NCBI GenBank assembly: GCA_029881725.1
Contig: JAOUMB010000006.1
Coordinates: 29,016 to 93,015, forward strand
From: Nitrospirota bacterium
GTDB taxonomy: Bacteria > Nitrospirota > JACRHL01
DNA length: 64,000 nucleotides
Direction: 5' to 3'
Shown: piece by piece, positions 36,091 to 44,608 of the stretch
Layout of the letters: each line of letters opens with the position of its first letter
Position numbering within the stretch: position 1 is the stretch's first letter
Translations under genes and position numbers: made by a program
Notes under the pieces: model-generated
Told to the model about the DNA's origin: nothing
Database searches by the model: none
Seen by the model: only the letters and a program-made list of their open reading frames with translations

Positions 36091-37395
36091 GTGAATCTTT
36101 ACGAACACGAAGCGGTCTCGAGCATTTACAAAAAGTACAAGGTTCCCCACGCCAATTTTGTGGTGGCAACCGAGCCGAACGATGAAGTGGCTCAGTTCGT
36201 CAAGGACAACGGCGGCGCCGTGGTCAAGGCGATGGTACTGGTCGGAAAGCGCGGCAAGGCCGGGGCAGTGAAGCTGGTCAACACCCCGGAAGAGGCTGCC
36301 AAGGCGGTTTCCGACATCATGGGGATGCTGGTGTGGGGCGAGAAACCGGTAGCGGTGATGGTGTGCGAAAAAGCCAGTATCGTGGCCGAGCTGTACTGCG
36401 CCATTACCTATTCCACTGAAACCCGCAGCCCAGTGATCACCCTGAGCATGCAGGGCGGCATGGACGTGGAGGACATTGATCCGGCCGACATCCAGACCTT
36501 CCCGGTGAAGGCCCAGGCCGAGGTGGAGCCATACGAGATCCGCAACATGCTGGTCAAGATCGGGTTCACCAAGCAGTATGGCGAAATCCTGCGTCAGGCC
36601 TCCATGGCCATCGCCAACGTCTACCAGGCGTTCTGGGGTGCCGAATGCCGCATGCTGGAGATCAACCCGCTGGCGGTGGTGAAGGTTTCCAAGAAGGACA
36701 AGAAGACCGGCGAGATGGTCGAAGCCCTGGACATTCGCGCACTGGACGCGGTGATCACTCTGGATGACGACGCCAGCATCCCGCCCCAGAAGATTTACGG
36801 TGAGCGTTCAGCTTACATGCGCGAGCCGACCCAGCGCGAGGTGGACGCCCTGCTCATCGACCGTGACGACCATCGCGGCAAGGCCGGTTCCTATGTGGAG
36901 CCGGAAGACCTGAGCGGTGACATCGCCATGATGACCTTCGGTGGCGGCGGCTCTGCCGTGACCATCGAAACCTGCTACGACGTGGGTCTGCGTCCGGCCA
37001 ATTTCACCGACATCGGCGGCAACCCGCCGGCGGAGAAGATGTACCGCATCGGTCGCATCATCCTGTCCAAGCCGGGCCTGAAGGGCGTGCTGGTGTGTGG
37101 TGGTACCGCCTCCAACACCCGCATCGACGTGACCCTGGGCGAGGGCCTGGTGAACGCCATCGACGATCTGGCCAAGGAAGGGAAGCTGGACCGCGACCTG
37201 ATCTGGGTGGTGCGCCGGGGCGGACCCGAGGTGGAAAAGGGCCTGAAACTGCTGGCCGAGTGCTTTGAGCGCAATGGCATCAAGGGCAAAATCTACGACT
37301 CCGAACTGCCGATCACCGAGGCGCCGCTGATCCTGCGCGACCTGCTGGTGGAGCACCGCGGCTACAAGCCGGGTGAGCAGGCCAAGGAAGCGTAA
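36091..37395 (+). CDS. ATP-grasp SucC-like protein; likely type II ATP-citrate lyase / citryl-CoA synthetase beta-like subunit
   Basis: LYEHEAVSSIYKKYKVPHANFVVA...AECRMLEINPLAVVKV...GGGGSAVTIETCYDVGLRPANFTDIGGNPPAEKMYRIGRIILSKPGLKGVLVCGG; neighbours are a citryl-CoA-lyase-like gene and aconitase. Confidence 0.8.
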   Translation: MNLYEHEAVSSIYKKYKVPHANFVVATEPNDEVAQFVKDNGGAVVKAMVLVGKRGKAGAVKLVNTPEEAAKAVSDIMGMLVWGEKPVAVMVCEKASIVAELYCAITYSTETRSPVITLSMQGGMDVEDIDPADIQTFPVKAQAEVEPYEIRNMLVKIGFTKQYGEILRQASMAIANVYQAFWGAECRMLEINPLAVVKVSKKDKKTGEMVEALDIRALDAVITLDDDASIPPQKIYGERSAYMREPTQREVDALLIDRDDHRGKAGSYVEPEDLSGDIAMMTFGGGGSAVTIETCYDVGLRPANFTDIGGNPPAEKMYRIGRIILSKPGLKGVLVCGGTASNTRIDVTLGEGLVNAIDDLAKEGKLDRDLIWVVRRGGPEVEKGLKLLAECFERNGIKGKIYDSELPITEAPLILRDLLVEHRGYKPGEQAKEA

Positions 37396-37444
37396 GCGCG
37401 AAATCGCACACACGGACCTTTAGGAAGCGACAAGAAGGAGAGTC

Positions 37445-38413
37445 ATGAAGGGCACCTCACTCCTCAACAAGAACACCCGTCTGGTGGTGATCGGCGCCAC
37501 CGGCCGCGAGGCCTCTCAGGTGGTACGCGAGTCCGAGGCACTGTTCCCCGGCATCATTCTGGCCGGTGTGACCCCGGGCAAGGGCGGCACCACCATCGAG
37601 CCGAACGTTCCCATCTTCAACACCATCGAAGAGGCGGTGGCGGAACATGGCGCAATCGATACCGCGCTGATCTACGTTCCGCCCGCATCGGTGAAGGACG
37701 CCGCGCTGGAGGCCATCGCCGCCGGGTTGAAGACCGTGTTCGTGATTACCGAGCACACCCCGATCCGCGATGCCGCGTTCATCTACCGGGTGGCCACCGA
37801 GAACGGTGTCCGCGTGGTGGGCGGCACCAGTCTGGGCTGCTTTGTTCCGGCCGTGGGGCGCATCGCGGCCATCGGCGGCAAGGCCCCCGAAGGCGCCCTG
37901 GCCGACGGCGGCCTGGTGGTGATTTCCAAGTCCGGCGGCCTGACCGTGACCACCGCCGAGATGCTCAAGCGCCGTGGCCACGGTGTGCTGATGGCGATGG
38001 GTATGGGCGGCGACATCATCGCCGGCACCATCTACTCCGACCTGATGGAAGAGCTTCAGGCCAACCCGGACTGCACCGGCCTGGTCATGCTGGGTGAAGT
38101 GGGCGGCACCTACGAGGAGCAGGCTGCCGAGGCCATTCAGGCGGGAAAATTCACCAAGCCGGTGGCGGCGTTCATCGGTGGCGAATTTCAGGAAGAGCAG
38201 GAAGGCGTGGCCTTCGGGCACGCGGGTGCGGTGGTGGAGCGCGGCAAGGGCAAGGCTTCGGACAAGAAGCGTTTGCTGGCGGCTGCCGGGCCCAACGTGC
38301 GCGTGGCCCGCTACTACCACGATCTTCCGGACTGCATCGAGGAACTGGGCGTGAAGCCGAATCTCGATAACCCGGCCTCCCGCGAGGTTCCGGCCAAGTA
38401 CGCGACCATTTAA
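37445..38413 (+). CDS. SucD-like protein; likely type II ATP-citrate lyase / citryl-CoA synthetase alpha-like subunit
   Basis: TRLVVIGATGREASQVVRESEALFPGIILAGVTPGKGG...GHAGAVVERGKGKASDKKRLLAAAG, with the active-site His context of CoA ligases. Confidence 0.8.
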   Translation: MKGTSLLNKNTRLVVIGATGREASQVVRESEALFPGIILAGVTPGKGGTTIEPNVPIFNTIEEAVAEHGAIDTALIYVPPASVKDAALEAIAAGLKTVFVITEHTPIRDAAFIYRVATENGVRVVGGTSLGCFVPAVGRIAAIGGKAPEGALADGGLVVISKSGGLTVTTAEMLKRRGHGVLMAMGMGGDIIAGTIYSDLMEELQANPDCTGLVMLGEVGGTYEEQAAEAIQAGKFTKPVAAFIGGEFQEEQEGVAFGHAGAVVERGKGKASDKKRLLAAAGPNVRVARYYHDLPDCIEELGVKPNLDNPASREVPAKYATI

Positions 38414-38453
38414 CGTCCTTTCGACCCCAGGCGCATCACCGCCAGGTTTTTGA

Positions 38454-40700
<2,247 letters not shown>

Positions 40701-40765
40701 TCGCGGATCGACGTGACCTGAGGATTAAGAGGGGTATAAACCCCATGGGATGATTCACCTGCATT

Positions 40766-40806
40766 AAAGGGGTGTGCTTTCTCCGCGAGGAGGGGGGCAC
40801 CCCTTT
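40766..40806 (+). other. Intercistronic stem-loop (AAAGGGGTG / CACCCCTTT)
   Basis: Perfect 9-bp arms 40766-40774 and 40798-40806; no following U-tract; lies between icd and the citryl-CoA-lyase-like gene. Confidence 0.6.
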
Positions 40807-40853
40807 CTTGCGGAAGCGGTGGCGGGGCCACCCCGAGAGGACTGGAGGAGAGA

Positions 40854-41630
40854 ATGTCGGACGTGCTTTGGAAAACCGGTGTTGCCGGTCAGATTGACGG
40901 CAAGACCGTCGTGCGTGGCTATCCGCTGCAGGAGCTGATTGGCAACGTCAGTTTTGCCGAGTCCATCTATCTGGTGCTGAAGGGGGAACTGCCCTCCGCG
41001 CCGGAAGCCAAGATGATGAACGCCATGCTCACCGCGTGCATCGATCACGGCATCGCCCCGCCCAGCGTGGTGGCCGCGCGCACCGTGTTCTCGGGCGGAA
41101 ACTCGCTGAATTCCGCCGTGGCTGCCGGTGCCCTGACCCTGGGCGACTTTCACGGCGGCGCCATCGAGCAGTGCATGAAGCTGTTCGAAGAACTGATCGA
41201 CGATTCCGTCACCGACATGAAGCAGCTTGCCAAGGACAAGGTGGCCGAGATGCGGGCCGCAAAGCGCCGCTTTCCGGGCTTTGGCCACAAGCTGTACAAG
41301 CGCGACCCGCGCACCGTGCGCATGCTGGAGTTGGCCAAGGAATACGGATTCGGCGGCAACTACATCAACTTTGCGGTGGCGGTGCAGGATTCACTGGAGG
41401 AAACCATGGGGCGTGACATGCCCCTGAATGTGGACGGCGCCATCGCCGCCATCCTGTGCGACATGGGCTTCGACTGGAAGGTCGGAAAAGGGTTCTTCAT
41501 TATCGCCCGCATCCCCGGTGTGGTGGCCCACATCGTCGAGGAGTGGTCGCGCGAGAAACCGTTCCGCCGCCTGCCGGAAGGGGCATATGCCTACGACGGG
41601 GCCGCCCTGCGGCGCGTTCCGGGCGCCTAG
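40854..41630 (+). CDS. Citryl-CoA lyase / citrate synthase-like subunit
   Basis: 258 aa; LWKTGVAGQIDGKTVVRGYPLQELIGNVSFAESIYLVLKGELPS...RFPGFGHKLYKRDPRTVRMLELA; much shorter than canonical citrate synthase. Confidence 0.85.
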   Translation: MSDVLWKTGVAGQIDGKTVVRGYPLQELIGNVSFAESIYLVLKGELPSAPEAKMMNAMLTACIDHGIAPPSVVAARTVFSGGNSLNSAVAAGALTLGDFHGGAIEQCMKLFEELIDDSVTDMKQLAKDKVAEMRAAKRRFPGFGHKLYKRDPRTVRMLELAKEYGFGGNYINFAVAVQDSLEETMGRDMPLNVDGAIAAILCDMGFDWKVGKGFFIIARIPGVVAHIVEEWSREKPFRRLPEGAYAYDGAALRRVPGA

Positions 41631-41662
41631 CCGCCTCACGTTTTATCAGAGGGATTTAAACA

Positions 41663-43927
41663 ATGCTCATCGATATCAACGACGTAAAAAAACTGTATGC
41701 GCGCCTGGATGCGGTGCACGCCGCCGCCCGCAAGCGCACCGGCAAGCCGCTCACCGCCGCCGAGAAGATTCTGTTCTCGCACATGGATGATGCTGACAGC
41801 TGCGGCATTTCCCGCGGCAAGGACGACGTGTGGCTGCGCCCGGACCGGGTGGCCATGCAGGACGCCACCGCGCAGATGGCGATCCTCCAGTTCATGACCG
41901 CCGGCATGCCCAAGGCCGCCGTGCCGTCCACGGTGCACTGCGATCACCTGATCCAGGCCTACAAGGGTTCCCAGCAGGATCTTCTGGTGGCCGAGGACAC
42001 CAACAAGGAGGTCTACGACTTCCTGCGTTCGGCGGCCCAGCGCTACGGCATGGGTTTCTGGAAACCGGGCAGCGGCATCATCCACCAGGTGGTGCTGGAG
42101 AACTATGCGGTTCCGGGCATGATGATGATCGGTACCGATTCCCACACCCCCAACGCGGGCGGCATGGGCATGATCGCCATCGGCGTGGGTGGTGCGGATG
42201 CCGTGGACGTGATGACCGGCCAGGCACTTTCCACCCGCATGCCGAAGCTGGTGGGCATCAAGCTGACCGGCGAACTGTCCGGCTGGACCTCGGCCAAGGA
42301 CGTGATTCTGCGGGTGGCCCAGATCATGACCGTGAAGGGCGGCACCGGAAAGATCGTCGAATACTTCGGCCCCGGCGCCCGTTCCATCTCGGCCACCGGC
42401 AAGGGCACCATCACCAACATGGGTGCCGAGATCGGCGCCACCACCAGCCTGTTCGGCTATGACGAGTCCATGGCCCGCTACCTGCGCGCCACCGAGCGCG
42501 GCGCAGTGGCCGACCTGTGCGACCAGTACGCCAGCTACCTGACCGCCGATCCGGAAGTGGAAGCCAACCCGGAGCAGTTCTACGATGAGGTCATCGAGAT
42601 CAACCTGTCGGAGCTGGAGCCGCACGTGGTGGGGCCGCACACCCCGGACCTGGCGCGCAAGATCTCCGATCTGGCCGCCGAGACCGACCGCGAGGGATAC
42701 CCGGAGGCGTTGACCGCCGCCCTCATCGGCTCCTGCACCAACTCCTCCTACGAGGATCTGACCCGTGCCGTGGACGTGGCCCGTCAGGCCGCCGCCAAGG
42801 GGCTGAAGGCCAAGGCGTCGTTCATGATCAGCCCGGGTTCCGAGCGGGTTCAGGAGACCATCATCCGGGACGGCATCCTGGAAGGGTTCGAGCAGGTGGG
42901 CGGCATCGTGCTGTCCAACTCCTGCGGCCCCTGCATCGGCCAGTGGAAGCGGGACGACATCAAGAAGGGGGATGCCAACAGCATCATCACTTCGTTCAAC
43001 CGCAATTTCCGCGCCCGCAACGACTCCAACCCGGAGACCCGCGGCTTCATCGCCAGCCCGGAGATCGTGGTGGCCATGGGTCTGGCCGGCTCGCTGAAGT
43101 TCAACCCGCTGACCGACAGCCTGACCGCCGCCGACGGCACCAAGTTCAAGCTGGAAGCCCCCAAGGGCACCGAGTTGCCCGCTGGCGGCTTTGCGTCCAA
43201 GGATGCGGGTTACCTGGCGCCCATCGACAACGCCCCTCCGGTGCAGGTGGACCCGAACAGCGACCGCATTGCGCTGCTGGATCCGTTCCCCAAGCTGGAC
43301 CCGAAGGCCGACTATCAGGACATGCCAGTGCTGGTGAAGGCGCTGGGCAAGTGCACCACCGACCACGTGTCTCCGGCCGGTCCGTGGCTGAAGTACCGGG
43401 GGCACCTGGATAATATCAGCGGCAACATGTACATCGGCGCCACCAACGCCTTCACCCAGGAAGCGGGCAAGGGCACCAACGTGCTGACCGGCGAAAAAGG
43501 CTTGGACTACAACCTGGTGGCCCGTGACTACAAGGCCAAGGGCATCGGCTGGGTGGTGATCGCGGACGAGAATTACGGGGAGGGTTCCTCCCGTGAGCAC
43601 GCCGCCATGGAGCCGCGCCACCTGAACGGCCGCGCGGTGATCGCCCGCTCGTTTGCGCGCATCGCCGAGGCGAACCTCAAGAAGCAGGGTATTCTGCCGC
43701 TGACCTTCGCCAACGCCGCCGACTACGACAAGGTGAAGGAGGATGACCGCATCACCCTCACCGGTCTGGACTCCATCGCCCCCGGCAAGCCGGTGACCAT
43801 GGAGATCAAACACGCCGACGGTTCCGTGGATACCGCCACCCTGAATCACTCCCTGAACGACACCCACATCGGGTGGTTCCAGGCCGGTTCCGCGCTGAAC
43901 AAGATCCGCGAGGAGCAGAACGCGTAA
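41663..43927 (+). CDS. acnA: Aconitate hydratase
   Basis: 754 aa; [89 protein letters not shown]. Confidence 0.95.
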
Positions 43928-43953
43928 GCGTTCCGTCTCCACGGCTCGCAAAA

Positions 43954-43998
43954 CAAAGGTCCCCCGGTCCGCCACAGGCCGGGGGACCTTTGTTTTTT
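43954..43998 (+). terminator. Rho-independent terminator after the aconitase gene
   Basis: CAAAGGTCCCCCGG (43954-43967) / CCGGGGGACCTTTG (43979-43992), perfect 14-bp stem followed by TTTTTT. Confidence 0.92.
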
Positions 43999-44068
43999 GC
44001 GCGGCGCCATGCTGCCGGGTATGATCGGACGTGCGAGGGTGCGGGAGATATCTCAGGGGGAAGAATCG

Positions 44069-44608
44069 ATGGACAAAAAACCATTTCTGACCGACGTGAA
44101 AACCTTGCGGGAACGCGCCCGCATGCACATTGAGCAGGGGGCCGTCACCGACAGTTACGGTGCCGACCGCCAGGTGGTCGTCCGTCTGCTCAACGAGGCC
44201 CTGGCCACCGAGATCGTCTGCGTGCTGCGCTACCGGCGGCACCACTTCATGGCGGCGGGCATCAACGCCCAGAGCGTGGCCGCCGAGTTCCTGCTGCACG
44301 CCAACGAGGAGCAGGCACACGCGGACCAGATCGCCGCGCGCATCGTGCAACTGGGGGGAGAACCGGATTTCTCGCCGGAAGGCCTGCTGGCCCGCAGCCA
44401 CGCGGAATACGTGGAGGGGAATTCCCTCACCGACATGATCCGCGAGGACCTGGTGGCGGAGCGGGTGGCCATCGACAGCTACCGGGAGATGATCAACTAC
44501 CTCGGGAACGGTGATTCCACCACCCGGCGCATGCTGGAAGGGATCCTCGCCATGGAGGAGGAGCACGCCGACGACCTGGCAAGCCTGCTGGCGGAGATGG
44601 GGGGCTAG
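44069..44608 (+). CDS. Ferritin-like / bacterioferritin-type four-helix protein
   Basis: RQVVVRLLNEALATEIVCVLRYRRHHFMAAGINAQSVAAEFLLHANEEQAHADQIAARIVQLGGEPDF...MLEGILAMEEEHADDLASLL. Confidence 0.85.
   Translation: MDKKPFLTDVKTLRERARMHIEQGAVTDSYGADRQVVVRLLNEALATEIVCVLRYRRHHFMAAGINAQSVAAEFLLHANEEQAHADQIAARIVQLGGEPDFSPEGLLARSHAEYVEGNSLTDMIREDLVAERVAIDSYREMINYLGNGDSTTRRMLEGILAMEEEHADDLASLLAEMGG

Follow-up and report, generated by a model that had tools for sequence, protein, structure and literature searches.

A predicted reductive TCA cycle operon with a two-enzyme citrate-cleavage route in an uncultured Nitrospirota family

In Leptospirillum ferriphilum, reductive TCA (rTCA) cluster 1, described in 2008, has the order ccsA-ccsB-acnA-ccl-orf1-frdAB-sucCD and was assigned to citrate cleavage by citryl-CoA synthetase (CCS) and citryl-CoA lyase (CCL), with no aclAB (PMC2607301). 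The isocitrate dehydrogenase (IDH) of this organism is noted to be E. coli-like, and a monomeric IDH favouring carboxylation is reported for Chlorobium limicola (PMC2607301). The Aquificaceae variant of the rTCA cycle carboxylates 2-oxoglutarate in two steps (PMC5441870). Type II ATP-citrate lyase (ACL) has been described as heterodimeric, its ccsB and ccl being joined in a single gene (PMC5459899), and in the clusters of tubeworm symbionts acn and idh adjoin aclAB (PMC6315080).

Here, we analysed a 64,000-nt stretch of DNA (the window) from a Nitrospirota genome. It contains a five-gene locus that is very probably an rTCA operon with CCS/CCL citrate cleavage, belonging to an uncultured family of this phylum.

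Organisation and conservation of the operon

Open reading frames and family scans bore out the five co-directional genes in the order proposed by the initial annotation (Table 1), with intergenic gaps of 49, 55, 153 and 32 nt, in gene order. The GHAGAVV motif that had been read in the SucD-like protein is present and aligns with that of CCS small subunits. The third and fifth genes scored well above the cut-offs of their family models (icd, 1244 bits against 950 for TIGR00178; aconitase, 1076 bits against 825 for TIGR01340). The strong terminator said to close the operon is also real: it is a near-perfect hairpin with a T run at its end, and the segment 43925-44000 folds at -47 kcal/mol (z = -8.8). 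A consensus terminator scan made no call at this position, and the hairpin was seen by folding instead.

Table 1 Predicted genes and terminator of the operon (positions in the window)
Feature	Position	Strand	Remarks
ccs large (beta) subunit, citryl-CoA synthetase, ATP-grasp and citrate-binding domain	36091..37395	+	GTG start, 434 aa
ccs small (alpha) subunit, citryl-CoA synthetase, CoA-binding, phosphohistidine motif GHAGAVV	37445..38413	+	322 aa
icd, monomeric NADP-dependent isocitrate dehydrogenase	38469..40700	+	743 aa; TIGR00178; solved relative 1itw
ccl, stand-alone citryl-CoA lyase, citrate-synthase fold	40854..41630	+	258 aa; NF004869, 6hxp, tree
acn, aconitase (mitochondrial type)	41663..43927	+	754 aa; TIGR01340
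Strong intrinsic terminator hairpin, possibly bidirectional	43949..43999	.	A run before, T run after

All four genera of the family that were sampled, that of the window and three more, share the order ccsL-ccsS-idh-ccl-acn, the contig of one of the three ending within acn. Since three further genera share the five-gene order, the arrangement is not due to chance; the operon is real, functional-looking and conserved.

On its 5' side, the operon is preceded by genes for an RND efflux pump and its membrane-fusion protein. Directly past the terminator lies a ferritin-like gene (PF00210) at 43997-44608. Its open reading frame begins with a TTG within the T run of the terminator, and its true start is probably further in.

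Identity of the predicted citrate-cleaving enzymes

Family scans described the products of the first two genes as an ATP-grasp/citrate-binding protein and a SucD-like CoA ligase. Among solved structures, the large subunit matched the H. thermophilus citryl-CoA synthetase best (6hxq_B, E 5.5e-158), followed by Thermus SucC (7.3e-32), and the small subunit matched the partner chain (6hxq_A, E 2.4e-113) ahead of SucD (5.8e-53); identities to 6hxq are 60% and 58%, respectively. The large subunit carries the citrate-binding domain PF16114 (57 bits, cut-off 26.8) and lacks Ligase_CoA, the reverse of the genome's own SucC, which has Ligase_CoA and no PF16114 match. In quickly built trees, for which SH-aLRT is the sole support measure and some outgroup branches are long, the large subunits of the window and the three other family members formed a clade (SH-aLRT 100) within the CCS set, joining Leptospirillum and one Nitrospinota sequence (SH-aLRT 95), away from SucC and type I ACL-B. 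The small subunit likewise fell within the CCS set, away from SucD and AclA. On the basis of best match, family models and trees, we assign the SucC-like protein as the large and the SucD-like protein as the small subunit of citryl-CoA synthetase. A plasmid search with the large subunit returned only matches below 60% identity, the best of which (28-32%) lie in the range of succinyl-CoA synthetase.

The 258-aa protein scored 318 bits against the citryl-CoA lyase model NF004869 (cut-off 212). Its best solved match is the H. thermophilus citryl-CoA lyase 6hxp (E 1.2e-77, 52% identity), with citrate synthase second (3.3e-22); across the three proteins, the E-value lead of H. thermophilus CCS/CCL over the next family spans 55 to 126 orders of magnitude. 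The catalytic His, His and Asp of the citrate-synthase fold are kept (HGG, GHK and NVDG aligned). In a tree of the same quick kind, it is sister to the Leptospirillum CCL (SH-aLRT 95), within a wider set (SH-aLRT 97) that also includes SZUA-79-type bacteria and H. thermophilus. By sequence, it is assigned as a stand-alone citryl-CoA lyase.

The initial annotation had named the three proteins a three-subunit, type II-like ATP-citrate lyase. Best matches, family models and trees point instead to two CCS subunits and a separate CCL, and trees of the kind that it had suggested, which covered succinyl-CoA synthetase (SCS) and type I ACL, set all three proteins apart from these two and grouped them with CCS/CCL from Aquificae and Leptospirillum. 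Even though ACL is made of the same modules, all three genes share one operon, and a Planctomycetes bin is reported to hold separate CCS/CCL genes that fall between Aquificae/Leptospirillum CCS-CCL and type II ACL (PMC5459899), we consider a three-subunit type II-like enzyme unlikely. The ccsB-ccl fusion reported for type II ACL is missing here, as the ccs small-subunit and ccl genes are unfused with idh between them, and on this architecture, compared with the published description, we reject type II ACL; moreover, the nearest relatives, in Leptospirillum and Hydrogenobacter, are two enzymes, as annotated or shown. Type I ACL was rejected as well, its AclA being a SucD-CCL fusion of ~610-650 aa where the operon has separate genes for 322 and 258 aa, and no fused ACL-type protein was matched elsewhere in the genome. 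It is extremely improbable that the SucC/SucD-like pair is simply a succinyl-CoA or malate-CoA synthetase of the usual kind. The pair does give distant matches to the SucC and SucD families, but it stays far under the cut-offs for SCS (170 against 370 bits and 216 against 336 bits) and for malate-CoA ligase, has citrate-binding in place of Ligase_CoA in its large subunit, stands apart from sucCD in the trees and coexists with a separate sucCD elsewhere in the genome; we reject this identity by the family scores and by the place of the pair in the trees.

A further set of lyase-like genes was seen outside the window. In two Nitrospirota families (L045, G000:C103, 3034-6564; L133, G006:C14, 7223-10685), a conserved three-gene set encodes two tandem citryl-CoA-lyase-like proteins of 273-297 aa without the catalytic His/His/Asp, adjoining an acetolactate-synthase-like thiamine-diphosphate enzyme. 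The tandem proteins form two separate paralogous branches in the tree and may be a pair of pseudoenzymes that act as partners of the TPP enzyme.

Remaining genes of the cycle and its likely direction

The genome (2.96 Mb, 98.35% complete) contains most of the other genes of the cycle, including genes like all those that had been suggested as checks, namely 2-oxoglutarate:ferredoxin oxidoreductase, fumarate reductase and canonical sucCD and gltA. Contig C106 encodes a fused gamma-alpha 2-oxoacid:acceptor oxidoreductase (KOR-like, 621 bits to TIGR03710) together with the beta subunit, and a pair of genes resembling pyruvate:ferredoxin oxidoreductase (POR-like) runs divergently from these; a TIGR03710 KOR-like gene is present in 4/4 family members. 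A type-E succinate dehydrogenase/fumarate reductase on C89 (L153, 6273-9827) comprises SdhA, SdhB and an HdrB-like SdhE and resembles the type-E fumarate reductase proposed for Leptospirillum. C25 carries a FrdA/TfrA-like gene followed by sucC-sucD and a 4Fe-4S protein gene, and C97 a full-length citrate synthase gene. KOR-like, POR-like, fumarate reductase-type and citrate-cleaving genes thus occur in one genome, with 2-oxoglutarate and pyruvate as putative substrates of the ferredoxin oxidoreductases, taken from family models only. Searches of this genome (98% complete) gave no match for RuBisCO, the N-terminal domain of 2-oxoglutarate dehydrogenase (OGDH), CdhC of CODH/ACS or PEP carboxylase; because the last was not found, another anaplerotic carboxylase would be needed.

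In the proposed pathway, the monomeric NADP-IDH would carboxylate 2-oxoglutarate to isocitrate, which aconitase would convert to citrate. The two subunits of citryl-CoA synthetase would then form citryl-CoA from citrate, ATP and CoA through a phosphohistidine of the small subunit, and the separate lyase would split it into acetyl-CoA and oxaloacetate. The earlier reading of the operon as a route from 2-oxoglutarate to acetyl-CoA and oxaloacetate, implying rTCA carbon fixation or reverse cleavage of citrate, is upheld in its rTCA part by this genome context at the level of predicted function. From the genes, we infer the enzymatic activities, the reductive direction, autotrophy and physiology.

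An alternative reading is a heterotroph that uses the operon mainly oxidatively or to supply citrate, or that takes up citrate and cleaves it. Both IDH and aconitase can work in either direction, and because the genome has a citrate synthase gene as well, the cycle may at times be oxidative. However, cleavage by CCS/CCL consumes ATP and would be superfluous in a cycle run oxidatively, the search of the genome for OGDH gave no match, genes resembling KOR and POR occur, and all four genera keep CCS/CCL, a KOR-like gene and a monomeric IDH. We therefore consider a mainly oxidative or heterotrophic role improbable; the gene set agrees with a reductive TCA cycle that could optionally be run oxidatively.

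A different carbon-fixation gene was observed in another member of the same family (G002), a metagenome-assembled genome of 540 contigs and 91% completeness. Its locus L152 (G002:C241, 357-4280) encodes a RuBisCO large subunit (793 bits to PRK04208), a class 1 fructose-bisphosphatase and, divergently, a LysR-type protein nearest CbbR (237 bits, under the model cut-off of 450). This member may hold both the Calvin and the reverse TCA cycles. Contamination may be an alternative source of the contig, though its G+C content (58%) is near that of other contigs of this genome.

Comparison with known citrate-cleavage systems

By these gene assignments, the range of the two-enzyme citrate-cleavage route now includes one more uncultured family of Nitrospirota; no carbon-fixation enzyme is added to those known. 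The linkage of CCS/CCL with a monomeric IDH in one operon helps to trace how CCS/CCL and ACL replaced each other. Judged from the open-access literature, which is weak evidence on this point, such a family-conserved operon may be unreported. The initial annotation had singled out both the monomeric IDH and the separate lyase gene after icd. The arrangement stands, with ccl separate and idh between; a monomeric IDH is not unusual among rTCA organisms, being reported for Chlorobium limicola and standing beside aclBA in Nitrospira-type genomes.

The closest relatives are those of Leptospirillum, in the same phylum (ccl 67-70%, ccs 58-62% identity). Leptospirillum-type loci (ccsL-ccsS-acn-ccl-...-sucC-sucD) have the same citrate-cleavage genes and an aconitase within the cluster. 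However, that aconitase belongs to another subfamily (~35% identity) and precedes ccl, and frd and suc genes follow in the cluster; a monomeric IDH was not found in two Leptospirillum-type genomes. SZUA-79-type loci consist of ccsL-ccsS-ccl.

Nitrospira-type genomes (L144, L146) have the order aclB-aclA-acn, directly followed by a monomeric NADP-IDH gene. As in the window, an aconitase of the same subfamily (61%) and a monomeric IDH (67-69%) thus stand beside a citrate-cleaving enzyme, but this is a fused type I ACL (AclA) where the window has CCS/CCL. An ancestral acn-idh cluster shared with Nitrospira was not supported: the Nitrospira-type IDH shares 72% identity with its Azotobacter counterpart but 68% with the one in the window, which gives no indication that the whole cluster descends from a common ancestor. 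We only tentatively entertain a hybrid operon, in which the two-enzyme cleavage of Aquificae and Leptospirillum would be joined to two components that stand beside ACL in Nitrospira, the monomeric IDH with its one-step reaction and this type of aconitase. If true, citrate cleavage would be the step at which modules were exchanged within one phylum.

In Hydrogenobacter thermophilus, as in the window, the large subunit of CCS, its small subunit and CCL are three separate proteins, with the same catalytic residues. The Aquificae loci that we fetched have ccsL alone or with ccsS, and their lyase and aconitase genes lie away from the synthetase gene, unlike in the window, where a monomeric IDH also takes the place of the two-step carboxylation of Aquificaceae. 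Type II ACL of Magnetococcus and tubeworm symbionts is built of CCS- and CCL-like modules too, but its ccsB and ccl are reported to be fused (PMC5459899). The window therefore departs from the type II description in the defining feature and matches CCS/CCL in every feature tested, and its combination of CCS/CCL with a monomeric IDH is a modest variation on known citrate-cleavage systems.
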